NCBI GenBank assembly: GCA_017395555.1
Contig: JAFPUE010000121.1
Location: 1-55,124 of the forward strand
From: Ruminiclostridium sp.
GTDB lineage: Bacteria > Bacillota > Clostridia > Oscillospirales > Ruminococcaceae
DNA length: 55,124 nucleotides
Direction: 5' to 3'
Position 1 is the first letter of the stretch; every line of letters begins with the position of its first letter. The position numbers were made by a program, and so were the translations under genes. Below are positions 6,369 to 41,542 of the stretch, one piece after another. The notes beneath the pieces are model-generated. The model was not told the origin of the DNA, ran no database searches, and saw only the letters and a list, made by a program, of their open reading frames with translations.

Positions 6369-8005
6369 TATTTTACCTCCTTTGAAAGACCTGTCACAAT
6401 AAAGTTTACTCCTGTGGGCGAAAGACAGAATCCTTCAACTCCATCATGTATCAGGTAATTCGTCCCCATAGTGCAAATCGGTATCGCGGCGGCATTTTCC
6501 ATCAGAATATCCTCAGCCTTGTGCAGAAGCTTGTTGCGTTCATCGGCGTTTTTCGCCATTTCCGCGCTGTCACAGCGTAGTATCAGATCGTCATATTCGT
6601 CGTTGCTGTATCCGTACGGAACATAATCGGTGAAAAAGCTGTTGAGGAAAGATGTCGGATCGCAGTAATCCGCGACCCAGTTTATGAGTATCATATCATA
6701 CTCACCCGCCATATAGAGACGCTGACGTTCTTTCATCGTAACGCTTCTGAACTCAAAATCAAGTCCGCGGAGCGCCTTCTTCATCTGTGCGGTCAGCGCT
6801 TCAACAAGCGCAGCATTTCCGGAATAATATACTATCTTCAGTTTCACGGAGGAAAGGCCCGTCTCGCTGAGTCCGAGTTCCCAGAGCCGTCCGGCTTCGT
6901 CCGGATCATACCGCGTGTATTCATCATACCGCGACCCGTCCGCCGAATAGTCAGTACCGTCGGTCTCCTTATAGAAATCCGGCGGAGTTATACACGTCAT
7001 GGGCGAATAACCCGTCCTCAGAAGATTATTCACGATGTCATCACGGTCAATGCTCTTTGTAAGCGCAAGCCGCAGATTTCTGTTCTGAAGCGCTGCAGAG
7101 TTTTTATGATTAAAGTCAATGTACGACAGGTACGCCTGAGGATAGACGTGAAGCTCTGGGTCTCCTTCGGTAAGCTCGGCATACTCGCCGGAAACCGATG
7201 TGATATCAACGACTCCCGACTTATAGCACATGATAGCCTGTTGTGTATTCTGTACTATCTGGATCGTAATACCGTGCGTTTTTATCTCATCCGCCCTGTA
7301 GTAATACGGGTTTTCCGTGAAGTGGATCTGCATCGCGATAGGCTCATATCTGTCCATGATATACGGTCCGCAGTAAAGCAGATTCTCCGCTCTGTCCGCA
7401 TAGTCGGTCCCGACTTCGTAATAAAAGTCCTCGTTACAGGGCGAGAAGTTCACCATAGTAATAAGTGACATGAAATAGGGGCAGGGATTTTCAAGCTCCA
7501 CGACAAATGTTTTATCGTCGGGTGAGCTCACTCCGAGCTCATTTACCGGTTTCTGACGCATATTGACTTCTATTGCATTCTTTATTGTGCAGCTGTCTGT
7601 TATCAGATAGACGCTGTTGCTTGCAACATCGGGATCTGCAAGACGCCGGAATCCGAAAACAAAATCCTCGGCATTCAGAGGTCTTCCGTCGCTCCACCTG
7701 AGATTTTCCTTCAGATTAAAGGTGTATGTAAGTCCGTCGTCCGAAACATCACAGCTTTCGGCAAGCCCGGGAACAAGCTCGTGGTCTGTATTGTACACAT
7801 ACAGCGTTGATGTAAAGAACGAAATCACGGAACCGGCATTGGTATCGAACGCTAGCTGAGGATCCACTGTTATCGGTGAACTGGAAAGCGCAATGTTGAT
7901 CTCGTTATCTGCCCCGTCCGACGCCGAACAGCCGCCGAAAACGCCTGTAATCATCACAAGTGACAGAAGAGCACTTATTATTTTTCTCATTCTTTTTTCA
8001 GCCAT
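6368..8005 (-). CDS. oppA: Family 5 extracellular peptide-binding lipoprotein (OppA/DppA)
   Basis: A 545-residue lipoprotein with a signal peptide and lipobox VFGGC (Cys26). The family 5 solute-binding fold is recognisable from LAESCDVSDDGLTYTFNLKE, WSDGRPLNAEDFVFGFRR, and a C-terminal DMILINWVADYCDPTSFLN block. It captures peptides outside the cell for OppBC. The ATG at 8005 has GAGGAG about eight bases upstream, inside oppF. An alternative start at 7990 overlaps the oppF stop as ATGA and would give a shorter signal peptide. Both are compatible with export. It lies between the ATPase and permease genes, and all five genes are tightly packed, so one transcript is likely. Confidence 0.92.
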   Translation of the reverse strand: MAEKRMRKIISALLSLVMITGVFGGCSASDGADNEINIALSSSPITVDPQLAFDTNAGSVISFFTSTLYVYNTDHELVPGLAESCDVSDDGLTYTFNLKENLRWSDGRPLNAEDFVFGFRRLADPDVASNSVYLITDSCTIKNAIEVNMRQKPVNELGVSSPDDKTFVVELENPCPYFMSLITMVNFSPCNEDFYYEVGTDYADRAENLLYCGPYIMDRYEPIAMQIHFTENPYYYRADEIKTHGITIQIVQNTQQAIMCYKSGVVDITSVSGEYAELTEGDPELHVYPQAYLSYIDFNHKNSAALQNRNLRLALTKSIDRDDIVNNLLRTGYSPMTCITPPDFYKETDGTDYSADGSRYDEYTRYDPDEAGRLWELGLSETGLSSVKLKIVYYSGNAALVEALTAQMKKALRGLDFEFRSVTMKERQRLYMAGEYDMILINWVADYCDPTSFLNSFFTDYVPYGYSNDEYDDLILRCDSAEMAKNADERNKLLHKAEDILMENAAAIPICTMGTNYLIHDGVEGFCLSPTGVNFIVTGLSKEVK

Positions 8006-28636: not shown

Positions 28637-31216
28637 ATGAAAAAAACTGTGCTTAAACTCACCTCCCTGCTGTGTGCGGCGGTCATCGCCGGTGCGGGGA
28701 CCGTGAACGCTTATGCCGACAACAGCTCGTCCGCCGGCAGGAACAATATCCCGGTATCACTGTCCGAGGCGGTAAAGACCTCATACAAGGGCAGCTCCGG
28801 CGTGATCGGGAAGAACGTGAAGCTGACCGGCATCACCGCTTCCAAAAGCGTCATAAACGACTTCGCGAAGAAGGTCAATGCCACCGCCAAGGGAAAGATC
28901 ATACTTCCCGCTGACACAGCCTCACAGACATACTACACCATAAACGGGAACAGCGATAACGGCTATTTCTCCGTGTCCCTCGTCAACGGTCAGTTCTACG
29001 ACTTCTTCCGTATCAACGACAACTATTACCCCGTGAACAAGGTTCTCGACAGCGTTTGCAGGAAGTTGATCGACACCGACGGTACCGAGGACAAGATCCC
29101 GGACCGTATGCTGAAATACCGGCTGCAATGCTCCGAGCCAAAGACCGACAAGGCATATATGACCTGCGCAAAGGCACTCGTTGGCAGGTGGCTCGATACG
29201 CTGAAAACCGAGACCGGCGAATATAAGCTCACCTCGTACAGCTTCAACAACGAGACACTCCCGACGGAGAACGACGCGGTACGCGGTGTCGGACTGATAA
29301 GCGGCGGACGGGAATTCTGCTGCACCGTGGGCTTCGACACACAGGGTACCGGAAAGAACAGCGTCTTCACGATCCCGGAGAACTCCGGCTACAACCGGTT
29401 CTACGACTATTACAGCGGGGCGCTTGTCGTTGTCAGGTGCAGGTGGGAGAACGGTATCTGCCGCATCGTGGATTACGGCAGAGGCGAAAAATATCTCACA
29501 GAAGGGCTTAACGGCATACGCACGGACAGCCCGGCTTACGATACTCTCTTTGATTTCTACCGCGACACCAAGACGGTAGAAAAAATGGACAAAGCGGTGG
29601 TTTACAAGACCACAAGCAATCAGACAAAGGCGGCTTCTTCCCCGATATATATGGCTGACGGCAGGATAGGATATGTTGCGATATATCCGAGAACTTATGT
29701 AAAGACCGGCAAGGACGGCATAAAGACCGCCGTTTATGACAACGCGTTCTTCGGTGAGGACCGCAAGTCAACATACAGCTCTCCCGTAGATTACAAGGAC
29801 GGCGAGGGTGCGCAGAAGGAGAACTTCCACGAGACGTTCTCGCTCGTTTTCGACGATTACAACGGCGACGGCAACGCGGATTTCGCGCTGAAGCAGTCGG
29901 CTTCCGACGAGACAAAGGACGGCGCGAGATACGAGGTGCGGTGTATGTCGAATGACATCACCCCGCGCGGAGAGCGGTTCTCGTTCTTTATGGCGGGACG
30001 CACCGAGGAGTCGATACGTCTCCAGCATATCGACGGCGGCAGATACGTTTACTGGTCAAAGGACAAGAACGGAAAGCTCACGCCCAACGCCGAGATAGAC
30101 GACTACCGTATGTACTCCGAGAGATACTACCTCCCTGCAAAGCTTCGCGCTTACGACGACGAGGATAAGATATACTGCTTCTTCTGGAACAACACCTCAA
30201 AGGACGTGAAAGTCGGCGGGAAGTACCACATCGAGTATAACAAGAACGGCAACTGGGTAGATGTCTCGAAGAACAGAAAGCTGGCGGAGACCACAGCGAA
30301 GGCATACCGCGACACGGAGCTGAAATTCAATATCTCCGGCATCAAGCGCACTCCCGGAGAATACCGCATTGTTATGAAAGTCGGCAATAAGACCGTTTAC
30401 GGCGGGTTCTACATCGGCGGCACGGGCTCGGCAATATCCGTTTCGGCGGAGAGCAGAACGATACCCGCGGGTGCCGATCACATAGAGTTCACAGTGAAGA
30501 ACACCGGTACGGAGCCTGTTCGCATAAGCGAAGCATACATCGCCTCGGACGGCACGAAGGTCACGGAGCTGACCGTCGGCGACAGCCTTGTCCCGGCGGG
30601 TGAGGAAAAGAACTTCGCCGCGGAGCTCGGCAAGGCTCTGACTGCAGGAAAATACACCATTAAGATACCCTACGGTGCCAAAACCGCGTCTTACGCAATA
30701 TCCGTCAAGAACGTAAAGGACAGCGCTCTCACCTTCTTCGGCGGGAAATGCACGGCTTCGCTCACAGACGGAAAACTGGATATCACCGTGAAGAACGGCA
30801 TTTACACAAAAGCCGACGCTTCGCTGAAGCTGTCGGATATCGGCTCGCCCGAGGTGTACCTGAATAATCAATGGACAAAAACGCACTGGATGCTCTACCC
30901 CGTAACAGCCGTGAACGCTTACAGCACAGCGATAAACATTGCTTACGGCAAGTCCCGCACATTCACATTTGCGGACAGCTACAATGCAGTCATGGAAAAT
31001 CCGGAGATACTCGCCGAAGCAAAGGAGCTATACAAATACTACATCGAGTCCCTCGACGAGCGCAAGGGTACCCCGGAATACGAAAAGTACCGGGATATGA
31101 CCTTTGACGAGTTCATGAAGCACATCGCATACGGCGACAGCGAGCCCACCGAACCCCCGAAAGGATCGCTTTACAGGTTAAAGCTCGGCAGCGAGTACAT
31201 ATACTTCGTCAACTGA
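28637..31216 (+). CDS. Large secreted protein with Ig-like C-terminal region
   Basis: 859 residues with a typical signal peptide (basic start, hydrophobic core, cleavage near AYA at residue 27). No enzyme family was recognised. Residues about 395-460 contain FDDYNGDGNADFAL, an acidic DxNxDG-type calcium loop like those of FG-GAP or dockerin repeats. Residues about 590-700 look like beta-sandwich modules of bacterial Ig type (ISVSAESRTIPAGADHIEFT and GKYTIKIPYGAKT). No LPXTG motif or C-terminal anchor is present, so it is probably released or held non-covalently. It is a single-gene unit with its own promoter and terminator. Function unknown. Confidence 0.85.
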   Translation: MKKTVLKLTSLLCAAVIAGAGTVNAYADNSSSAGRNNIPVSLSEAVKTSYKGSSGVIGKNVKLTGITASKSVINDFAKKVNATAKGKIILPADTASQTYYTINGNSDNGYFSVSLVNGQFYDFFRINDNYYPVNKVLDSVCRKLIDTDGTEDKIPDRMLKYRLQCSEPKTDKAYMTCAKALVGRWLDTLKTETGEYKLTSYSFNNETLPTENDAVRGVGLISGGREFCCTVGFDTQGTGKNSVFTIPENSGYNRFYDYYSGALVVVRCRWENGICRIVDYGRGEKYLTEGLNGIRTDSPAYDTLFDFYRDTKTVEKMDKAVVYKTTSNQTKAASSPIYMADGRIGYVAIYPRTYVKTGKDGIKTAVYDNAFFGEDRKSTYSSPVDYKDGEGAQKENFHETFSLVFDDYNGDGNADFALKQSASDETKDGARYEVRCMSNDITPRGERFSFFMAGRTEESIRLQHIDGGRYVYWSKDKNGKLTPNAEIDDYRMYSERYYLPAKLRAYDDEDKIYCFFWNNTSKDVKVGGKYHIEYNKNGNWVDVSKNRKLAETTAKAYRDTELKFNISGIKRTPGEYRIVMKVGNKTVYGGFYIGGTGSAISVSAESRTIPAGADHIEFTVKNTGTEPVRISEAYIASDGTKVTELTVGDSLVPAGEEKNFAAELGKALTAGKYTIKIPYGAKTASYAISVKNVKDSALTFFGGKCTASLTDGKLDITVKNGIYTKADASLKLSDIGSPEVYLNNQWTKTHWMLYPVTAVNAYSTAINIAYGKSRTFTFADSYNAVMENPEILAEAKELYKYYIESLDERKGTPEYEKYRDMTFDEFMKHIAYGDSEPTEPPKGSLYRLKLGSEYIYFVN

Positions 31217-31295: not shown

Positions 31296-31324
31296 TTGAC
31301 TTTTGGCGGCAGGTGTGCTATAAT
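31296..31324 (+). promoter_or_regulatory. Sigma-A promoter of the surface-polymer cluster
   Basis: TTGACT at 31296-31301, 17 bp, TATAAT at 31319-31324. It probably serves the four genes to 37655, which are separated by 11 to 32 bases. Confidence 0.82.
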
Positions 31325-31358: not shown

Positions 31359-33437
31359 ATGAAATTGATCGGTTTGTTGAATAAACGCGTCCTTTTCAAG
31401 GAACGCACTGAAAAGCTCGCCGGTATAATAAACTCACTCGTATTTGCGCTTGCACTCATGCTGTTCTGCGCCGTGTTTCTGAATATGAGCATCGTGCTCT
31501 CGGGCTTGGTGTTCGTGCTTATAGCCGCGGCATTCATTGTCACAAAGCTCTACCGCGTCATGTACAACAATACCGTGCTGGTGCATATCCTATGTGCCGG
31601 CTGCGGGATATACTGCGCATCGCTGATACTTGACATTGCCGCTTTGCGGAGTGACCCCGAAAAAGCGGTCATCGCCGCAGCTTCGGGGATAGTGTTCTTT
31701 GAAGCGACTGAATTTATCTCCGGTATCGCCATGAGCTTTATCGACGAAAAGCCGCACAACGAAAACTTCGGAATGGCTGTGCTCGCCGTTTTTCCGCTGT
31801 TCTTCACGACAGTGATCTTCGTGCCGTCGGAGACTTTTTTCGCGAACTCGGACAGCTTTCTGATAATGTACTCCGATATTGTGCCGTATGTCCTCATAAA
31901 AACGGCATTGCTGACACTGATATCCGCTGTGCTGCTGTGTAGCTTCAATAAAAAACGCTTCAAGATCATAACCCGTATTATTGCGGGAGTGACCCTGTGC
32001 GCCTATGCTCAGTATATGTTCATGAATGGACTTTTGCCGCGCGCTCTCGGTGACAGGGTAGATTGGAATGCGCACACCGTCGAGCTGGTAATTAACGCGG
32101 TGATATGGGTGCTTCTGGCACTGCTCCCAACTGCGGCAGGTATCGTGATCGACAGAGTAAAGGCGCTCAAGGATAAGCCGGCAGCGGAGAATGCACACAA
32201 TTACCTGTCCGCGTTCATAGGCGGTATGCAGCTCATCACTTATGCTGTGCTCCTGTTCACGTCGGATATATGGGAAATGCACGAAGAGCTTGTGCTGCTT
32301 TCAAACACGGAGCAGTTCATTGTCTCCGGAAATAAGAATATCATTACGTTCATCATAGACATGGCTGACCGCAACTACTTCGACGAGGTTTACAGCGATC
32401 ACCCGGAAAAGTTTGAATGTCTTAAAGACTTTACATACTACACCAACGCGTGCATGATGTACGATTCCACGGAATTTTCGATACCGCAGATGCTCACCGC
32501 TTCGCAGGAGCTTCCCGGGACCTCGCTCACGGAATGGCTCGGCAGGGTATGGAACAGCGAGTCGTCGGAGACGTTCTATTCGAGACTGCACGAGAACAAC
32601 TACACCGTGAATGTTTACGGCGATTTCGAGACCGAATACCCGCAGCTTGTCGGAAAGATCGACAATGCCCGCACCGTCGAGCACCGCGATATCAAGGTGG
32701 ACGGGAAAGCTCTTGCTGAGACAGTTGACTGTCTCTCGGCGTACAGGTGGCTGCCGCTTTGCATGAAGGGCATTTACACAAACGCTGACCTCGATTTCAA
32801 CGACGCGGCGCAGATCCCCCTGCAAAGCGTTTATGACAACCGGGAATTTCTGAACGCGACGAACCTTGAAATCTCCGAAAGCGGCGATAACCGCTTCATT
32901 GTCGAGCATATCATCGGCACTCATGAATACACAGGTACTTACTACGAGGAGACGCTTGACTGCCTCGATGTTATTGCGAAATATACAGGGCAGCTCAAAG
33001 AGCTTGGCGTTTACGACGACTCGCTCATTATAATCACCGCTGACCACGGTGAGCACTACAAGCCCGACGATATCCCGATATGGTACATAAAATACCCCGG
33101 CGAGAAGCACAACGAAATGCTTTACAGCAACGCTCCGATATCTCACTCCGACTTCTGCGCAACTTGCCTTTCGGCTGCCGGCCTTTGGCAGGACGGAGAC
33201 TCGGAGCTGTTCGGCAGACCTGTCTCCGAAATAGCCGAGGACGAAGAGCGCACAAGGCTTCTGTTCCAGAGCAACCGCTTTCAATACGTCGGTCCCGTTG
33301 ACTGGAAGATATACTCCGATGCCGAACACATGGGTGCATTGTTCGGATATTACTACACAGGAGACCGTGACGATCTCAAAGCGCGCTGCACAAGCGCCCC
33401 GCCCGATATACTCATCGAGATCACACCGCCGTATTAA
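31359..33437 (+). CDS. Membrane protein with alkaline-phosphatase-fold (sulfatase/phosphotransferase-like) domain
   Basis: 692 residues. About seven to eight hydrophobic segments fill residues 25-310. The extracytoplasmic domain opens with NIITFIIDMADRNYF (metal-binding Asp near 334) and has YDSTEFSIPQMLTA, a likely nucleophile region, then IIITADHGEHYKPDD (metal-binding Asp-His near 561). This is the arrangement of LtaS/sulfatase-type enzymes that transfer phosphoglycerol or phosphoethanolamine to surface polymers. The nucleophilic Thr/Ser is not certain. It is paralogous to the gene at 35865, which shares the layout. Together with the glycerophosphotransferase fusion it suggests teichoic-acid-like polymer work. 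Confidence 0.85.
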   Translation: MKLIGLLNKRVLFKERTEKLAGIINSLVFALALMLFCAVFLNMSIVLSGLVFVLIAAAFIVTKLYRVMYNNTVLVHILCAGCGIYCASLILDIAALRSDPEKAVIAAASGIVFFEATEFISGIAMSFIDEKPHNENFGMAVLAVFPLFFTTVIFVPSETFFANSDSFLIMYSDIVPYVLIKTALLTLISAVLLCSFNKKRFKIITRIIAGVTLCAYAQYMFMNGLLPRALGDRVDWNAHTVELVINAVIWVLLALLPTAAGIVIDRVKALKDKPAAENAHNYLSAFIGGMQLITYAVLLFTSDIWEMHEELVLLSNTEQFIVSGNKNIITFIIDMADRNYFDEVYSDHPEKFECLKDFTYYTNACMMYDSTEFSIPQMLTASQELPGTSLTEWLGRVWNSESSETFYSRLHENNYTVNVYGDFETEYPQLVGKIDNARTVEHRDIKVDGKALAETVDCLSAYRWLPLCMKGIYTNADLDFNDAAQIPLQSVYDNREFLNATNLEISESGDNRFIVEHIIGTHEYTGTYYEETLDCLDVIAKYTGQLKELGVYDDSLIIITADHGEHYKPDDIPIWYIKYPGEKHNEMLYSNAPISHSDFCATCLSAAGLWQDGDSELFGRPVSEIAEDEERTRLLFQSNRFQYVGPVDWKIYSDAEHMGALFGYYYTGDRDDLKARCTSAPPDILIEITPPY

Positions 33438-33469
33438 TAAAGATATATTATGAAAGAAGGAAAACAATA

Positions 33470-33799
33470 ATGAACATCAAACACGAAAAAGCGATAATGA
33501 CTGCTGCCGCTTTATGCGGTTCGGCAGTGGTATTCTCCGTTCCCGCATCGGCGTACATTGATCCCGCCACCACGAGCTACATCATACAGATAGTCGTCGG
33601 CGTAGTCATCGCCTGCGGTACCGCCGCGGGTATCATCTTCAACAAGATGAAGCGCAAGCTGAAGAAAAAGGACGACGGCACCAACACTGCGGAGACCGTG
33701 TCCTCCGGCACCGGCAAGGGCGGTGTCATGACCGCAGCCGATCTGCTCGATGACGAGAACGCGGACGAAAATGCCGATAACGGCAATAGCGAAGAATAA
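33470..33799 (+). CDS. Small YIDPAT-type membrane protein
   Basis: 109 residues. A signal-peptide-like start (ALCGSAVVFSVPASA) is followed directly by YIDPATTSYIIQIVVGVVIA, a transmembrane helix, then KMKRKLKKK and an acidic tail rich in Asp, Glu and Asn. The YIDPA(T/S) plus one helix plus basic stretch pattern recurs in small proteins of surface-polysaccharide clusters, but no function is established. It has AGAAGGAAAA before its ATG and sits between the phosphotransferase and the YidC fusion. Confidence 0.8.
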   Translation: MNIKHEKAIMTAAALCGSAVVFSVPASAYIDPATTSYIIQIVVGVVIACGTAAGIIFNKMKRKLKKKDDGTNTAETVSSGTGKGGVMTAADLLDDENADENADNGNSEE

Positions 33800-33810
33800 T
33801 CGGTACAGTT

Positions 33811-35841
33811 ATGTCAGAGGTGATAGATTTTCTCATCGGCATACTCGGGTATGTGATGAAATTCTGCTATTTTCTGCTGAAGGACTACGGACTGAGCATC
33901 ATACTCTTTACGCTGATAACAAAAGCGGTGCTCTTCCCTCTCAGCATTATGACGCAGAAAAACTCGATACGGATGGTGCAGCTCCAGCCGAAGCTCGACG
34001 AGCTGAAAATAAAGTACATAGACGACAAGGACAAATTCACCGACGAGCAGGTGGCGCTTTACAAGAAATATAAGTACAACCCGTTCCTTGATACCGTTCC
34101 CCTGCTTTTGCAGATACCGATAGTGCTCGGTCTTGTGGGCGTTATCTACCGTCCGCTCAGCTTCGTGCTCGATATCGGCGAAAGCACGATAGGGCGGCTG
34201 AACGACTGGATCGTGAATACCGTCGGCATTACCGACGCAGGCAATATGTTTCAGCTCTCGATACTTGAACAGCTGAAAAACGGCGCAGTCCCGCCTGCCG
34301 ATATCCCCGCGGACGCTCTGCAGAAAATAAACGAGTTCGGGACGCATTTTCTCGGCATTGACCTCGGCAGCACACCCTCATTCACAGGTGACCCGCTGCT
34401 CCTGCTGATACCGCTGCTCGCGGGACTCAGCGCATGGCTTCTGTGCTTCGCGCAGAACAAGCTCAATGTTCTACAGCTTGCACAGGGCAATCTCAACAAA
34501 ATACTCACCACCGTGTTTATGGTTGGATTTTCAACCTACTTCGCGTTCATAGTTCCCTGCGGCGTAGGTCTCTACTGGATATTCGGCAACCTTTTTGCGA
34601 TACCGCTTTTAGTTGTTACGAACCTTGTACTGCCCCCGAAGAAGTACGTCGATTATGATATGCTGCTGCGCACAAGGGAAGAAAAAAAGCGCAAGGAAGC
34701 CGAGTTCAGAAAGTACAGGAAGCGCGAAGCCGCTGATTACAAGCGGTTCTTCGAGGTAAAGGACATGAAGCTGATGTTCTACTCCGAGAGCAACGGCTTC
34801 TATAAATACTACGCGGGAATGCTCGATTATATCCGCGCTCACTCCGACATCACGGTGCACTACGTCACGAGTGACCCGAACGACAGGCTGTTCACAAATA
34901 CGCCGTCGGGGATAGTTCCCTACTATATCGCAAGCGACAGATATCTCGTTCCGCTGTTCATGAAGCTCGACTGTGATATGTGCGTGATGACTATGCCCGA
35001 TCTCGAAAAGTACCACATAAAAAGATCTCGGGTGCGCAATGATATCGAATATGTTTTCGCCTGCCACGGTATCGGAAGTATCATAACCTACCGCAAGGGC
35101 GCGCTCGACCACTACGACACAATTCTCTGCCCAGGAAAGGCGCAGTATGAGGAGATACGCGCTTCCGAGAAGCTGTACGGTACGCATGAGAAGCTGATAG
35201 TCGAAGCGGGATATCCGCTTATCGACGACATGGTCAAGCAGTACAAAAGCACGGAGCATAAAAAGAACGATCCGCCGCAGATAATGATAGCGCCCTCGTG
35301 GCAGCCCGACAACATCATAAGCCTTTGCGGCGAGGAGCTTATCGACAGACTCTCGGAGACGGGATACCGCATAATCCTACGTCCTCACCCGCAGCACGTC
35401 CGTCATGAGCCCGAGACCTTTGCGGCAATGAAGGAAAAGTACGCCGGCAATGACCTTATTGAGATACAGACCGATTTCTCGCAGAACAATCCGGTAATGG
35501 AATCAGACCTGCTTATAACCGACTGGTCTGATATAGCTTGGGAGTTCGCGTTCACCACAAAACGTCCGGTACTCTACATCGACACGCCTATGAAGGTCAT
35601 GAACCCGGAGTTCGACAGGCTGAACATTGAGCCGATAAACAAGAGCCTACGCACGTCGCTCGGAAGGATTATCGGCACGAACGAGCTTGAAAACGCGGCT
35701 TCCGCAGTAAAGGAAATGCTCGCGGACAGAGAGAGATACGCGGAGCGTATAGACGCTGTATATAAGGATCAGATCTATAATATCGGAAGAAGCGGTGAGC
35801 TCTGCGGAAGATACATAATACGCTCACTCGGAGCAAAATAA
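33811..35841 (+). CDS. YidC/Oxa1 insertase fused to a TagB/TagF-like CDP-glycerol glycerophosphotransferase
   Basis: 676 residues in one frame. Residues 1-275 read as a YidC-type insertase: TM1 at about 8-22, YGLSIILFTLITKAVLFPLS, groove arginine in NSIRMVQLQPKLDEL (Arg54), PLLLQIPIVLG, and a C-terminal LYWIFGNLFAIPLL helix. A charged linker (about 285-315) joins a glycerophosphotransferase domain (316-676) with FACHGIG (416-422), IMIAPSWQPD, RPHPQ (524-528) and ITDWSDIAWEFA (569-580), motifs of the Tag/Tar family. A frameshift artefact is unlikely because the junction is continuous and the linker is basic. Flanked by two phosphatase-fold membrane proteins. Confidence 0.9.
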   Translation: MSEVIDFLIGILGYVMKFCYFLLKDYGLSIILFTLITKAVLFPLSIMTQKNSIRMVQLQPKLDELKIKYIDDKDKFTDEQVALYKKYKYNPFLDTVPLLLQIPIVLGLVGVIYRPLSFVLDIGESTIGRLNDWIVNTVGITDAGNMFQLSILEQLKNGAVPPADIPADALQKINEFGTHFLGIDLGSTPSFTGDPLLLLIPLLAGLSAWLLCFAQNKLNVLQLAQGNLNKILTTVFMVGFSTYFAFIVPCGVGLYWIFGNLFAIPLLVVTNLVLPPKKYVDYDMLLRTREEKKRKEAEFRKYRKREAADYKRFFEVKDMKLMFYSESNGFYKYYAGMLDYIRAHSDITVHYVTSDPNDRLFTNTPSGIVPYYIASDRYLVPLFMKLDCDMCVMTMPDLEKYHIKRSRVRNDIEYVFACHGIGSIITYRKGALDHYDTILCPGKAQYEEIRASEKLYGTHEKLIVEAGYPLIDDMVKQYKSTEHKKNDPPQIMIAPSWQPDNIISLCGEELIDRLSETGYRIILRPHPQHVRHEPETFAAMKEKYAGNDLIEIQTDFSQNNPVMESDLLITDWSDIAWEFAFTTKRPVLYIDTPMKVMNPEFDRLNIEPINKSLRTSLGRIIGTNELENAASAVKEMLADRERYAERIDAVYKDQIYNIGRSGELCGRYIIRSLGAK

Positions 35842-35864
35842 TTTCGGTAACAGGTGACAGGGAT

Positions 35865-37655
35865 ATGAAACATACCGTTTCGGCCGGGAGACCGCCGAAA
35901 GAACGTCTTTGCAAAAAAAATATCATAACCGCGCTTGCTGTATGCGTTTTTACCGCATTCACGCTGTGCTTTTTCTCCCCCGCGGAGATGTATGCCGCCA
36001 ACCCGACGGAATACCTGATAGGACCCGCCGATGCGCTCATTCCCCTGCTGATAACGGTGGCCGCGCTTTCAGCGGTGCTGTTCACGGTGACGGCTGTGTT
36101 CCTCGCGCTGAACGAAACTCTCGCGCAGGTAACAATACGCCTGCTGCTCGGATTTACGCTCGCCGGATATGTGCAGATGATGTTCCTGAACGGCAGACTC
36201 GCGAAATTTACCGGCGACGCGGTGAGATACGACATGAGCGATCCGTTCATTGCGGCGGATTTCGTTATATACTACCTCGTTTTTCTTCTGCCGCTGATCC
36301 TGTACGCGGCAAAGCGCTCAAAGCCCGAGGGCAGGCTGTCAAAGTTCCCCGCAGAGAAGATAATTTCCGCGGTAAGCGCGGCGCTGATCGCAATGCAGAC
36401 AATAGGCATTGTCCCCGGTATTATCTCGGCTGCGGACATAATGAAGGAGCGGTACACATTCTCGGACTACTACCTGTCCTATGACCCGATACTGTCGCTT
36501 TCCAAGGAAAACAACGTTATTGTGTTCCTTATTGACCGCCTTGACGGCAACTGGATGCAGCAGGCGATAGACGAGTACCCGGAGCTCAGCGGATATCTTG
36601 ACGGATTTACGTTTTACCGCAACAGTGTCAGCCAGTATGTTTACACCGACCCGTCGGTACCGCAGATGCTTTCGGGAATCAATCCGGAGGACTGCGGCAG
36701 GCATATCGACGAGGAAACGTTCTGGGGCAGCAACGCTGTTCTTAAGCCCCTGCACGACAACGGTCTGAATGTCAATGTCTTCATAGACCGTACCTTGTAC
36801 AAATCACTTGACGACGTTGCTTCATACGGCTATATCGACAATCTCAGCGAGCAGGATATACAGTATCACATAAATTACATTGACGAAGGCGGAGTTGTTC
36901 CGAAGCAGATGCAGTTCTCCTTTATCAAGACAATGCCGTATATCATAAAACCGTTTTTTTACACGGGCATATCCTCCGAATTTGCAAACACCTTCATTGT
37001 GAGCGAAACAGATGTTCCCACTCTTTCACAGGTCGGTATAAGAAGTGATCTGCAATTCCTGAATTATGTGAAGGAGCACGGACTGAACGCCGACAGCGAA
37101 AAGCCCGTATTCGACTTTGTCCATCTGAGCGGAGCACATGACATCAGCGAGGAGCTCGCCATGCTTTACCCGAAGACCGCCGAAAGAGGCGTTTTTGACG
37201 AGGTCACCAACATTCGCGGTGAATTGGAGGTATTAAACTACTGGTTCGAGGAAATGAAGCGCCTCGGCATTTACGACAGCTCAACGATAATCCTCACGGG
37301 CGACCACGGCAGACCGATAAAATACAGCGAGGTCAAAGCGGAAGCTCTCGACGACCCGATACTCACAGGACTTCTGATAAAGCCTGCCGGTGCGGAGCAT
37401 GCCCCTCTCGTCACCGACACCGAGACTGAGATGTACAATCCGTACTTCTCCGCAAGCGTGCTTGAATACGCGGGACTCGATCATTCCGCGCTCGGGACCT
37501 CCTACAACGACTCGATCACCCAGGGAATTCATACCGAAAGGGTCATCTACCCCGTTGATTTCGGCGGTCAGCTCGGCAGACCCGTTGACGCCGGAATATA
37601 CATCATAACCGGCAATGCCATGGATTTCTGCAATTGGAAATATGTCAAGTTCTGA
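35865..37655 (+). CDS. Membrane protein with alkaline-phosphatase-fold domain, paralogue of 31359
   Basis: 596 residues. Five to six hydrophobic segments occupy about 20-190. The outer domain starts NNVIVFLIDRLDGNWMQ (Asp near 224), has FYRNSVSQYVYTDPSVPQML, and ends with STIILTGDHGRPIKY (Asp-His near 480). The order of motifs matches the protein at 31359, so the two arose by duplication around the YidC fusion. Probable role is transfer or hydrolysis of a phosphate ester on a surface polymer. ACAGGTGACAGGG precedes the ATG. Confidence 0.85.
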   Translation: MKHTVSAGRPPKERLCKKNIITALAVCVFTAFTLCFFSPAEMYAANPTEYLIGPADALIPLLITVAALSAVLFTVTAVFLALNETLAQVTIRLLLGFTLAGYVQMMFLNGRLAKFTGDAVRYDMSDPFIAADFVIYYLVFLLPLILYAAKRSKPEGRLSKFPAEKIISAVSAALIAMQTIGIVPGIISAADIMKERYTFSDYYLSYDPILSLSKENNVIVFLIDRLDGNWMQQAIDEYPELSGYLDGFTFYRNSVSQYVYTDPSVPQMLSGINPEDCGRHIDEETFWGSNAVLKPLHDNGLNVNVFIDRTLYKSLDDVASYGYIDNLSEQDIQYHINYIDEGGVVPKQMQFSFIKTMPYIIKPFFYTGISSEFANTFIVSETDVPTLSQVGIRSDLQFLNYVKEHGLNADSEKPVFDFVHLSGAHDISEELAMLYPKTAERGVFDEVTNIRGELEVLNYWFEEMKRLGIYDSSTIILTGDHGRPIKYSEVKAEALDDPILTGLLIKPAGAEHAPLVTDTETEMYNPYFSASVLEYAGLDHSALGTSYNDSITQGIHTERVIYPVDFGGQLGRPVDAGIYIITGNAMDFCNWKYVKF

Positions 37656-37697: not shown

Positions 37698-37733
37698 AAA
37701 TGCCTTTCCCGAATAATCCCGGGAAAGGCATTT
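37698..37733. terminator. Bidirectional terminator between the polymer cluster and the hybrid kinase
   Basis: A perfect 14-bp stem AAATGCCTTTCCCG/CGGGAAAGGCATTT with A- and T-rich flanks serves two convergent genes. Confidence 0.9.
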
Positions 37734-37738
37734 ATTAT

Positions 37739-40700
37739 TTATTCCGCGCTTTTGATATTGAGCATGGAGAGCTCGACGCTGAGCCATTTGCAGCGCTTCG
37801 TCAGCTCTTCGAGCTTGCGGGTGTCGATAACACCTTCTTCGCTGCCCGCCTGCGCTTTCAGATCCGAGGCAAGCCGCATTATCCACTCCGCGCCCGCCGT
37901 CCTCGACGAGCTTTTCAGCGTTCCGAGCTTGCGGCACATCATAACCGTATCGCCGCTCTCGTAGCATTCGTTGATCTCGTCGGTCAGCGTAAGCAGCATC
38001 TTGGAGTACGTTTTCAGAACTTCGCAATAGATATCCTCGTTGCCGGAGTTCTTGATTCCCTCCGAAACGTCCAGCTCAGGTGTGTCGAAAATGAAATCCG
38101 GGAGCGTCTGCCGCTGCTTAGGTTCCCGCTTCGGGATCTCCTGCACCGTCTTTATCTTCTCCTTCGGCAGACGTTCGTACATCATATTCTCCAGCGCCGC
38201 GGAGTCGATAGGCTTTGTGAGATAGTCGTCAAATCCCGCCTGCAGATACTTCTCACGCGCACCGGATATGGCGTTTGCGGTAAGGCATATCATCGGAGTA
38301 TCGCGGTTCAGATCGCTGTCGGAGGCTTTGAGCTCCTTCAGAGTCTCGATACCGTCCTTGTTCGGCATCATGTGATCAAGGAAGATGATATCGTATTTGT
38401 TCTTGAGCGCGAGCACAATTCCCTCGTCGCCGCTGTCCGCCGTGTCTATATGCACATCCGTCTGCTTGAGCAGGCTCTTGAATACGATCAGGTTCATCGG
38501 AGTGTCGTCCACAACGAGTACGCGGGCATCGGGAGCCGTGAACTTCTCCTTGTACTTCTCGTGCTCCGAGATAGCGTTTTTGTACGCCTTCTGATAGTCG
38601 CCGATAGGATCCCACCTGCGTACCGTCTGCTTTATCTCAAAGCTGAATATCGAGCCGACGCCGTAAACGCTCTCGACTTTCAGAGAGCTGTTCATCATCG
38701 TCAGCAGACTCTGCGTTATCGACATTCCGAGACCGGTACCCTCGATACTGCGGTTGCGCTTCTCTTCGATACGCTCAAACTGCGTGAACAGCTTCGCCAT
38801 ATCCGCCTTCTTGATACCGATACCGGTGTCCTTCACAGAAACGGTGAGCATCATCGCGTCCGGCTCGTCTTCGAGCTTCCGGTAGCCAACACTCAGCGTT
38901 ACGCTGCCCTTTTCGGTGTATTTTACCGCATTCGTGAGGATATTGGTTATTACCTGCTTTATGCGGACCTCGTCGCCGTGCAGATACTCCGGCATATTGC
39001 AGTCAAAATCGGGTACGAGCATAAGCCCCTTCGCCTCTGCCCTTGCGCGTATCATATTCACAAGGTCATTGAGCATTGAAGCAAGCTCGTAATCCACGGG
39101 GATGATCTCCATTTTGCCCGCCTCGATCTTCGAGAAGTCGAGGATATCGTTTATCAGACCGAGCAATGTGGTTCCCGCAGTCCTTATGCTCTCGGAATAC
39201 TCGATGATATTGCTGTCCGTGGATTCGCGCAGCACCATTTCGTTCATACCGAGAACAGCGTTGATAGGCGTTCTGATCTCGTGAGACATATTGGACAGAA
39301 ACGCGGATTTCGCCTCACTCGCCGCGATCGCCCTCTGCGACATATCAATGAGCTTTTCGCGCTCTTTTCTTTCGTTGTCTATGTCCTCAAACAGTCCGAG
39401 AACGTGAACGGGCTTGCCGAGTGAGGAGCGCTCGGAGACGATAAATCTGCCTCTGCGCCACTTCTTGTCCTTGCTCAGATACTCCATTGCAATGGTCTGT
39501 TCCTCCGCCAGACGCTTATCGAGCGTGGACAGATCAATAAATTCAAGCATAGCGTCGAGCGTGGAAGCATCGGTCATCTGCCTTACGACGTTGTTCAGCG
39601 TAGCCTGTGCGTGGCTGAGGTCATTTCCGACGATATCGGTTAGCTGTCTGCTGCCCGCCTTGACCTCGCTGAGCGTGTCCTTCGTGAGATCGAAGTCATA
39701 TACCGACATATAGATGTTCGCTATCGAGCTTATCTGATTGTTGAGCTTCTGGGCAACGGCGGTGAGCTTATCGCGCGCCTGCTTTTCCTTGTCGATGTTT
39801 TCGAGCATCCACAGCACCTTTATGACCTTGCCGTCCTCCGCTCGCTCGGATACCACATACCTCGCTCTGACCCAGATATTGCCGTAGCTCAGATATTCGA
39901 GCGTGACGGTGTTTGTGCCGTTCAGGTACTCGTCGATTCGCGACATATCCGCGAAATCTACCGCAGCCTGCTTTGTCGGGTTCTCCGGCAGACCCTTCAT
40001 AATGCCGAAGAATATCTCCTGCATATTGTGGTCACAGGCTCCTACCGCCCTTGCTATCGCGGGATTTGCGTTCTTTATCTCTACTACGCTGTTATCCGGG
40101 ATATCGAGCTCACATAGCGAGATGTAGATATCTGCAGCGGATTCGAGCTGTGAGCGCAGATTTACGTTCTTTTCGGAGAGCCTGTCGCGCTCGCGCTTTT
40201 CGGTGTCGATGTTTTCAAGCATCCACAGGACGTGCTTCACTCTGCCTGCCTTGTCGCGCTCGGAAACGATATAACGCGCTCTGACCCAGATATTGCCGTA
40301 GCTCAGATATTCGAGCGTTACGACGTTTCTTTCCTTCATACGCTCGTCTATCGTCGAAAGATTGGCAAATTCTATCGCCGCCTTCTTTGTCGGGTTCTCC
40401 GGCAGTACCCGCATTATCCCGAAGAATATCTCCTGCATATTGTGATCGCAGGCTCCCACCGCCTTCGCGATCGCGGGATTTGCGTTCTTGATAGCGGTAA
40501 CGTCGTTGTTCGGTATGTCCAGATCGCATACCGACATATAGATATCAGCCGAGGATATGAGCTGGGCATTGAGCCTTTCGGCGATAAGATCTCTCTTTGC
40601 AGCTCTTACTATTATCACGGCGATGATGAGCAGCGTTATCAGCATAGCGCCTATGCCCACCCACATCGTGATACGAAGCGGGCGGTATGCGCTGTCCGCA

Positions 40701-41542
40701 TCGGAAACGGATACACTGTACCAGCCGTTCTGAATCGGCACCGCGTAGATAATCAGCTTTTTACCGTTGAAATCAACATCAAAGGTGTGCTCTCCCAAGC
40801 CGCGCAGTTTTTTCGCGAGCAGCGTTCCGAAGCTGTCGGAGCCGTCGAAGTAGTTCTTGCCGAGCTCATTTCTGTCGGAGTGAGCGACAACCGTACCGTC
40901 GCCGCAGAGAACTATCTCCGCTATCAGTCCGTCCTGTGCCGTCTCCTTATCGACGATAGCCTGTATCTCGTCCATGGTTATATCGAGCGCGACGACGTTC
41001 TTTCCGTCCTCCGTGCTCTTTGCGAGCGTAAGTATAATACCGCCCGTCTGCATATCGAGGTACGGGTCAACAACCGTGACCTTTCCGCTGTTCTCGACGG
41101 TCCTGATGTACCACGGGCGCTCCGTCGGAACGTAATCCTCGTCCGGCACCCAACCCGCTCCGTCATAGTATTTGCCGTTTATGTACGCGTACAGACCCGT
41201 CGTGTTCGGTACGACAGAGCCGAGTATCATATCCGTCTCCCGGGTAAGATAAGCGAGTATCTCCTCCTCGGAAGCGTTCTCCTTTATCATGGTGCTGACG
41301 GAGTATTCTGTAAGCTCGATAACGTCGATACCCTTTGAGATAAGAGCCGAAAAGCGATCGGCGGAGTCTATCGCGTTGATCTCGCCGCTTTGACGTATCG
41401 TCGTCATGGTGGAGTTATATATCTGCACCCCATAAACAGAAAGAAGCACGGTAAAAAACACCGGCACAAATAATGCCGCCGCTATTTTACGCGCGCCGAA
41501 CCGCATCAATATATCAAATATGCTCGTTTTCCTCTTATCCAT
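37739..41542 (-). CDS. Large hybrid sensor histidine kinase (dCache, three PAS-like repeats, HK, REC, degenerate Hpt)
   Basis: 1267 residues. Transmembrane segments at about 18-40 and 290-312 enclose a dCache-like sensor with RPWY (142-145) and DPYLDMQTGG (159-168). Three tandem PAS-like repeats of about 130 residues follow (about 325-455, 460-595, 600-730); the first two are nearly identical. The kinase is intact: His754, NILTNAVKYT (Asn871), DTGIGI, GTGLGMSI. The receiver (1006-1125) has Asp1011/1012, Asp1056, Thr1088 and Lys1110. The C-terminal Hpt-like region (about 1155-1260) has Gly1207 where the His should be (KLGTLKSSSR). CGGAGA precedes the ATG. Monocistronic. Output partner not nearby. 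Confidence 0.94.
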   Translation of the reverse strand: MDKRKTSIFDILMRFGARKIAAALFVPVFFTVLLSVYGVQIYNSTMTTIRQSGEINAIDSADRFSALISKGIDVIELTEYSVSTMIKENASEEEILAYLTRETDMILGSVVPNTTGLYAYINGKYYDGAGWVPDEDYVPTERPWYIRTVENSGKVTVVDPYLDMQTGGIILTLAKSTEDGKNVVALDITMDEIQAIVDKETAQDGLIAEIVLCGDGTVVAHSDRNELGKNYFDGSDSFGTLLAKKLRGLGEHTFDVDFNGKKLIIYAVPIQNGWYSVSVSDADSAYRPLRITMWVGIGAMLITLLIIAVIIVRAAKRDLIAERLNAQLISSADIYMSVCDLDIPNNDVTAIKNANPAIAKAVGACDHNMQEIFFGIMRVLPENPTKKAAIEFANLSTIDERMKERNVVTLEYLSYGNIWVRARYIVSERDKAGRVKHVLWMLENIDTEKRERDRLSEKNVNLRSQLESAADIYISLCELDIPDNSVVEIKNANPAIARAVGACDHNMQEIFFGIMKGLPENPTKQAAVDFADMSRIDEYLNGTNTVTLEYLSYGNIWVRARYVVSERAEDGKVIKVLWMLENIDKEKQARDKLTAVAQKLNNQISSIANIYMSVYDFDLTKDTLSEVKAGSRQLTDIVGNDLSHAQATLNNVVRQMTDASTLDAMLEFIDLSTLDKRLAEEQTIAMEYLSKDKKWRRGRFIVSERSSLGKPVHVLGLFEDIDNERKEREKLIDMSQRAIAASEAKSAFLSNMSHEIRTPINAVLGMNEMVLRESTDSNIIEYSESIRTAGTTLLGLINDILDFSKIEAGKMEIIPVDYELASMLNDLVNMIRARAEAKGLMLVPDFDCNMPEYLHGDEVRIKQVITNILTNAVKYTEKGSVTLSVGYRKLEDEPDAMMLTVSVKDTGIGIKKADMAKLFTQFERIEEKRNRSIEGTGLGMSITQSLLTMMNSSLKVESVYGVGSIFSFEIKQTVRRWDPIGDYQKAYKNAISEHEKYKEKFTAPDARVLVVDDTPMNLIVFKSLLKQTDVHIDTADSGDEGIVLALKNKYDIIFLDHMMPNKDGIETLKELKASDSDLNRDTPMICLTANAISGAREKYLQAGFDDYLTKPIDSAALENMMYERLPKEKIKTVQEIPKREPKQRQTLPDFIFDTPELDVSEGIKNSGNEDIYCEVLKTYSKMLLTLTDEINECYESGDTVMMCRKLGTLKSSSRTAGAEWIMRLASDLKAQAGSEEGVIDTRKLEELTKRCKWLSVELSMLNIKSAE

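Follow-up and report, generated by a model that had tools for sequence, protein, structure and literature searches.

A YidC-transferase fusion of Ruminiclostridium sp. as part of a candidate four-module membrane system for surface decoration

A stretch of 55,124 nucleotides from Ruminiclostridium sp. (GenBank assembly GCA_017395555.1, contig JAFPUE010000121.1, positions 1 to 55,124; hereafter the window) contains a gene that joins a YidC/Oxa1 domain to a TagF-like transferase (GT) domain, and its neighbors encode two membrane enzymes of sulfatase fold (SULF) and a short protein with a YIDPAT sequence (YIDP). On balance, we favor the reading that these four modules (YIDP, YidC fold, GT and SULF) make up a dedicated membrane machine, which would decorate surface molecules with phospho or phosphono head groups supplied by cytidine mono- or diphosphate (CMP/CDP) donors; a surface-decorating function as such is probable. 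The module set, its permutation among genes in relatives, the gene neighbors and a separate YidC are seen directly in the sequence. The genes and domains in question are the following.

31359 to 33437, + strand: sulfA, a multi-transmembrane (multi-TM) enzyme with a sulfatase/alkaline-phosphatase-type domain, LtaS-like by profile, 692 amino acids
33470 to 33799, + strand: YIDPAT protein, 109 amino acids
33811 to 35841, + strand: YidC-GT fusion, 676 amino acids
33886 to 34605, + strand: YidC/Oxa1 domain of the fusion (residues 26-265), with the codon of Lys38 (33922-33924) at the groove position
34756 to 35838, + strand: TagF-like (PF04464) transferase domain of the fusion, start approximate, with invariant His419 and His526
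35865 to 37655, + strand: sulfB, a second sulfatase-fold membrane enzyme and paralogue of sulfA, 596 amino acids

The fusion is a single ATG-started open frame, in which PF02096 (60KD_IMP) matches residues 26-265 (E 9.3e-36, 123.7 bits, cut-off 35), TIGR03592 (YidC) scores 112.6 bits (cut-off 84.3), and PF04464 (Glyphos_transf) matches residues 448-590 (E 1.5e-12, 47.6 bits, cut-off 22.1), the last match covering only 148 of the 367 profile positions. An earlier note, made from the letters of this DNA, had read the chain as an insertase joined to a TagB/TagF-like domain, and this holds: both families exceed their cut-offs in one frame, the region of residue 280 has neither a stop nor a frameshift, and the fusion recurs in many further genomes. 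Of 247 genomes of the family at least 14 contain it, as do, at E<=1e-40, 12 of 295 genomes of the order (own genome counted in both), and the family and order matches that start near residue 180 are YidC-GT proteins as well by domain profiles. In GTDB, 26 stretches fitted the pattern and 21 fusion loci were confirmed, with 54-88% identity; one of these loci, in the named strain Ruminococcus sp. FC2018, carries a fusion that is 72% identical. Plasmid searches returned no place covering 80% of the query. Because both domains share one open frame at all 49 loci compared (the window and 48 others, called clade A here) and a separate YidC occurs in all 44 system-bearing genomes examined, the fusion is confirmed as a genuine gene and not an assembly artefact.

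The same modules are regrouped among genes in relatives, which argues for one membrane complex in which YidC is not a mere anchor. In clade A, YIDP, YidC-GT and SULF are separate genes, and in a second group (clade B) they appear as YIDP-GT and YidC-SULF. For example, transferases without YidC at four loci (L115, L117, L118 and L119; handles with L and G denote loci and genomes) start with YIDPGTGSMLF and a TM helix, so that YIDP is fused to the transferase, and the adjoining gene at these loci and at L116 encodes a protein of 917-984 amino acids with a YidC domain ahead of a sulfatase-type domain. The Pfam Sulfatase model exceeds its cut-off only in L117, stays below it in L115, L118 and L119 and does not match L116; a profile built in this analysis finds the SULF part in all five (L115-L119). 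L116, whose GT frame runs off the contig, is not counted here; of the 19 clade-B loci that are, 18 have YidC-SULF no more than 6 kb from YIDP-GT, and the remaining one (L157, genome G675) has two YidC domains in long frames 7-10 kb distant. A third arrangement occurs at L159, where a YIDP-SULF protein adjoins YidC-GT. In addition, genome G717 holds both the clade A and the clade B forms, and G380 and G415 carry YidC-GT plus another YidC domain, encoded in a frame some 930 amino acids long. Either fusion type was found in 14 of 391 genomes in a class-wide search and in 3 of 348 genomes, one of them outside the class, in a search of the phylum.

The neighborhoods are consistent with this picture. 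SULF lies within 6 kb of the fusion in 35 of 49 clade-A loci and YIDP in 44 of 49 (37 by profile, 6 by a loose motif scan and one, L105 in G396, by an order-wide search with the YIDP profile), counts that are inflated since the profiles were built from the counted loci (YIDP and SULF from many, the donor genes discussed below from L036, L053 and L062). Twenty control stretches of 18 kb, taken from 15 system-bearing genomes at round rather than random coordinates, held no YIDP, SULF, YidC, GT or phosphoenolpyruvate (PEP) mutase (Ppm), and gave a single match each for NTP, FeADH and AT. The YIDPAT protein itself has a signal-like N-terminus, the YIDP motif at residue 29, a TM helix, a basic stretch and an acidic tail, and a Pfam scan gave no match over a cut-off. 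When its profile was run against 245 genomes of the order, the ten best matches (E<=1.5e-6) all lay within 0.7 kb of a fusion, and the next eight were weak (E 1.9e-5 to 9.5e-4), one of them being the YIDP-GT of G343. The suggestion of the earlier note that this protein is a partner of the fusion is therefore well supported, since in clade B it forms one chain with the transferase, and at one locus with a SULF enzyme. YidC persists when GT has its YIDP anchor, and YIDP mostly persists when YidC anchors GT. Neither, then, looks like an anchor alone, and a complex with an inner and an outer enzyme seems to require both. An acidic C-terminal tail behind the basic stretch (consensus ADDLLDD) is common to the YIDP proteins of the Ruminococcus group (window 33470-33799; L036-L055).

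The YidC domain seems to have been specialised beside a separate YidC. In the own genome (G000) the separate copy is on contig C47 (G000:C47), with Arg at the groove position, and another YidC frame of 241-551 amino acids is present in all 44 system-bearing genomes, that of G071 being a partial match near a contig end. The fused domain is thus not the sole YidC of any of them. For comparison, 23 separate YidCs were drawn from 34 loci, a set biased to query-like proteins, in which K47 and C95 are present in 23 of 23, as against none of the 49 clade-A domains. P238 and Q266 are likewise fixed in the 23, and occur in none and in six, respectively, of the 37 clade-A domains with a residue there. 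Clade A has fixed positions of its own, namely Q101 (49/49) and Q215 and N271 (each 37 of 37 rows with a residue), where the separate YidCs show mixed letters. Because the positions fixed in separate YidCs are lost and others are fixed, we consider that the fold has been kept under changed constraints. In a tree whose bootstrap was not fully settled and in which 12 clade-A rows were less than half filled, the fused domains form clades A and B, separate from each other and each with 100/100 support; clade A is nearest to the separate YidCs of its order, and a joint A+B clade was not rejected by the approximately unbiased test (p 0.168). Repurposing of the YidC part, which the earlier note had raised as one reading, is in this sense well supported: the domain has the features of a specialised rather than a housekeeping protein.

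A positive residue in the groove of YidC is regarded as essential for insertion, and in the fusion of the window it is Lys38 in TM1. The position is occupied by K in 48 and R in one of the 49 clade-A domains, by N (19), S (2), Q (2) or T (1) in the 24 clade-B domains, with no positive residue in any, and by K (15), R (7) or Q (1) in the 23 separate YidCs. Lys in place of Arg was considered as a mark of repurposing in clade A and rejected, given the 15 separate YidCs with Lys; only clade B supports the point. Compared with the known YidC/Oxa1 insertases (PF02096, TIGR03592), the fusion is similar in its profile match over residues 26-265, in a match to a solved structure over residues 7-114, and in the groove Lys and Q101 of clade A. 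It differs in being joined to a transferase or an LtaS-like enzyme and additional to a separate YidC, as well as in the absence of K47 and C95 from clade A and of groove charge from clade B.

The catalytic parts of GT and SULF look alive, judged by their conserved residues. Two histidines of GT (H419 and H526), which we equate with the catalytic pair of TagF by their motif, are invariant in 22 of 22 fusions, and the corresponding H156 and H263 are found in four of four clade-B rows. In a quick tree with long branches, built from 29 of the 49 clade-A rows, 20 rows of clade B and 10 of the 12 outgroup frames considered, one branch with SH-aLRT (approximate likelihood ratio) support of 99 splits the GT domains of clades A and B from ten other PF04464 proteins of the class. 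A single-sequence search of the Protein Data Bank (PDB) with the GT part gave no match. As for SULF, the earlier note had described the flanking genes as paralogous membrane enzymes of LtaS/sulfatase type, and both indeed match PF00884 (Sulfatase), barely over the cut-off of 25 (27.1 bits for 31359-33437 and 30.0 bits for 35865-37655). In sulfA numbering, D334, D562 and H563 are present in 71 of 71 SULF proteins, H522 is present in 69, and position 371 is T in 68 and S in 3; Thr371 is presumably the nucleophile by analogy with LtaS. Sulfatases carry the formylglycine motif CxPxR or SxPxR at the nucleophile. CxPxR occurs in none of the 71 SULF proteins, and [CS]xPxR occurs in four, never near the conserved Thr. 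The best solved structure for the SULF profile is LtaS (2w5q, E 3.1e-9), with sulfatases and phosphonate monoester hydrolases next in order; a single-sequence PDB search with sulfB gave no match. SULF thus resembles the lipoteichoic acid synthases of LtaS type as a membrane enzyme with a C-terminal alkaline-phosphatase-type domain and the Thr/Asp/His pattern. On the other hand, the similarity is low, several sulfatases are nearly as close, and SULF, of which one locus can hold as many as three copies, is accompanied by YidC and YIDP modules. Two or three SULF paralogues stand in tandem beside one fusion at L043, L045, L046, L051, L052 and L061, perhaps for different acceptors.

Genes that could supply activated head groups adjoin the system in some relatives. 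A choline kinase-nucleotidyltransferase and a BCCT transporter adjoin the fusion at L036 and L061, and PEP mutase fused to cytidylyl and NTP transferase domains lies near it at L059, L062, L063 and L158, together with genes of thiamine pyrophosphate-decarboxylase type and, in part, alcohol dehydrogenase genes. At L039, L053 and L066 a nucleotidyltransferase-aminotransferase fusion adjoins YidC-GT, and L053 carries a nucleotidyltransferase-CobD-like fusion and a methyltransferase. Identification of the L053 and L066 proteins as PntC-AEPT was rejected, since the aminotransferase part of L053, the one such fusion tested against NCBIfam, is nearest to the threonine-phosphate decarboxylase CobD (163.4 bits, where the cut-off is 290.55). 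Of the 49 clade-A loci, 20 have a donor-type gene (NTP, ChoK, Ppm or CTPt) at a distance of 6 kb or less, as do 9 of the 19 clade-B loci (p 0.002 and p 0.003, respectively, against 1 of 20 controls). These p-values are optimistic, as the loci are related and some supplied the profiles; without the three source loci the clade-A count is 17 of 46. On the genome scale, PEP mutase (E<1e-30) occurs in 15 of 25 fusion genomes and 4 of 25 others (p 0.0015), the latter being hand-picked from the own family and not phylogeny-matched. Either PEP mutase or a match to the L036 kinase-nucleotidyltransferase (E<1e-20; in several genomes the nucleotidyltransferase part only) occurs in 20 of 25 versus 7 of 25.

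In the own genome, contig C29 encodes a cytidylyltransferase-PEP mutase fusion with the EDK-X5-NS motif (TIGR02320 402.7 bits, cut-off 319.55) and a phosphonopyruvate decarboxylase (TIGR03297 464.9 bits, cut-off 312.5); no protein matched that of L036 at E<=1e-8. The phosphonate cluster around them (L112, G000:C29, 2923-9803) comprises cytidylyltransferase-PEP mutase, a metallophosphatase, an epimerase, a DUF6564 protein, a saccharopine-dehydrogenase-like protein and phosphonopyruvate decarboxylase, with no aminotransferase or Fe-ADH match among the seven frames scanned. At L058, a polysaccharide pyruvyl transferase (6799-7935) stands directly 3' of the YidC-GT fusion.

From these parts a mode of action can be proposed, in which assembly into a complex, the topology, the identity of donors and acceptors, and each of the catalytic steps belong to the model rather than to the observations. 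First, cytosolic enzymes would make a CMP- or CDP-activated group, which in the own genome is probably a phosphonate derived from phosphonopyruvate. Second, the GT domain would move this group onto a membrane-bound acceptor; as YidC proteins end in the cytosol, GT is placed there, where the CMP/CDP donors are. Third, the YidC fold and the YIDP helix would hold GT and SULF together and may be the path of the loaded lipid to the outer leaflet. Fourth, the SULF enzyme, whose catalytic domain is placed outside by analogy with LtaS, would transfer or trim the group on the final acceptor. The earlier idea of YidC as membrane platform of the transferase thus captures only a part of the arrangement, because the clade-B transferase has a YIDP TM helix of its own and YidC is nevertheless retained, joined to the sulfatase-fold enzyme. 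To our knowledge, no physiological use in bacteria has been assigned to lipid scrambling by insertases. Lipid translocation by the YidC fold is the least certain step and may be a natural guess, since the Oxa1 fold scrambles lipids in vitro and E. coli YidC is among the insertases that do so according to a preprint (PMC10491306). Taken further, the fold may have been converted from an insertase to the core of the decorating machine, forming with the YIDP helix a groove that passes GT-loaded lipid carriers outward to be unloaded by the LtaS-like enzyme; we put this forward tentatively, as a possibility that falls well short of being favored, and clade B with its uncharged groove would then represent the completed conversion.

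The chemistry itself is of a familiar type, and the four-module architecture is apparently undescribed: neither a YidC fusion of this kind, nor a YIDP protein, nor the architecture was found in the titles and abstract openings of the literature searched, whose scope largely excluded subscription papers. On how such bacteria attach phosphonates and other CMP-activated groups to the surface, the later tailoring steps of the Pnt (phosphonyl tailoring) pathway are called enigmatic (Rice et al. 2019, PMC6697681). In that pathway PEP mutase forms fusions with nucleotidyltransferases of PF12804 or PF01467, an arrangement also seen next to several of the fusions described here. However, the transferases named there are LicD-like, and the words YidC, TagF and insertase are absent from the main text of that paper. 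In the type A flagellin modification of C. difficile (CD0241-CD0244), the glycerophosphotransferase-like protein CD0244 offers a precedent for the pairing of such a protein with a group other than glycerol: it is needed for full phospho-N-methyl-threonine modification, and its role is left open in that study (PMC4441256); the CobD-like fusion and methyltransferase of L053 may be compared with it, but the description of that system includes no YidC, YIDP or SULF part. Together with its rearranged relatives, the operon supplies candidate decorating enzymes for both sides of the membrane. If the proposal is true, an Oxa1-family fold would be a standing subunit of a biosynthetic complex, and the idea of lipid scrambling by insertases would become testable in this system.

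Several observations weigh against the decorating machine. Clade A keeps the groove Lys as do 15 of the 23 separate YidCs, so that it may still act as an insertase. When the fusion profile was compared with solved structures no TagF structure was matched, true sulfatases are among the matches of the SULF profile too (the best at 5.1e-8), and sulfA in a single-sequence PDB search matches sulfatase-type entries only, weakly. Among the 49 clade-A loci, 14 have no SULF, 5 showed no YIDP gene (L035, L038, L049, L065 and L066) and 29 have no donor gene within 6 kb. There is no donor gene near the operon of the window, its phosphonate cluster being on another contig, and four of the 25 comparison genomes, chosen as described, have Ppm without the fusion.

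A dedicated insertase is doubtful but deserves attention among the alternatives. Here the YidC part would insert the YIDP peptide and the multi-TM SULF proteins as clients, and the fusion would only keep insertion close to where these proteins work. A small protein whose TM helix is followed by basic residues, such as YIDP, is what we take to be a typical YidC client, and the positive groove residue and Q101 of clade A agree with such a role, the kept groove Lys also with the suggestion of the earlier note that the YIDPAT protein is a client. Against it, all 24 clade-B grooves lack the positive charge, YIDP is itself fused to enzymes, and K47 and C95 are missing throughout clade A. That YidC is a simple anchor, which only fixes a soluble TagF-like domain to the membrane, is quite improbable. 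GT does come directly after a fold that ends in the cytosol, but clade B keeps YidC on SULF where GT already has a YIDP helix, and some YidC positions that vary in the separate proteins are conserved in clade A.

A teichoic-type polymerase, in which GT would polymerise glycerol phosphate from CDP-glycerol beside SULF enzymes of LtaS type, had been the expectation of the earlier note, and we now regard it as unlikely. In its favor are the PF04464 match, the weak match of the clade-B profile to the TagF-like Cps3D (8qoy, E 0.0041) and the closeness of the SULF profile to LtaS. However, the own genome (about 87% complete) has no PF04464 match besides the fusion and no glycerol-3-phosphate cytidylyltransferase over the cut-off (best TIGR01518 score 23.4 bits, cut-off 165.4), and the genes beside the relatives would make activated choline, phosphonate or threonine-type groups instead. 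The fusion shares with the TagF-like transferases (PF04464: TagF, TagB, Cps3D) the C-terminal match and the two histidines, as well as, in clade B, the weak Cps3D similarity, but differs in the separate branch that it forms with clade B and in neighbor genes for donors other than CDP-glycerol. Finally, a neutral fusion, in which a housekeeping YidC was accidentally joined to an adjoining enzyme with no new function, would fit the position of clade A nearest the separate YidCs of its order, but is hardly credible given the second YidC in every system genome examined, the fusion as one 100/100 clade spanning several families, and the conserved neighbor genes.

In the window, the four genes follow each other on the + strand as sulfA, YIDPAT, fusion and sulfB and are likely one operon with a single transcript, because their gaps are 11-32 bp and two sites frame them.

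31296 to 31324, + strand: promoter-like site, TTGACT-17-TATAAT with TG before the second hexamer (extended -10), 34 bp upstream of sulfA; a consensus match only, 11 of 12 positions
37698 to 37733, + strand: terminator-like stem-loop (stem-T) 3' of sulfB; a consensus match, scored on the other strand too, for the convergent gene

Immediately upstream of the operon lies a gene for a secreted-looking protein of 859 amino acids with a Big_14 Ig-like domain (28637-31216). The convergent gene (37739-41542, - strand) encodes a hybrid sensor kinase of 1267 amino acids, in which, by eye, a segment is repeated about three times ahead of the kinase part.

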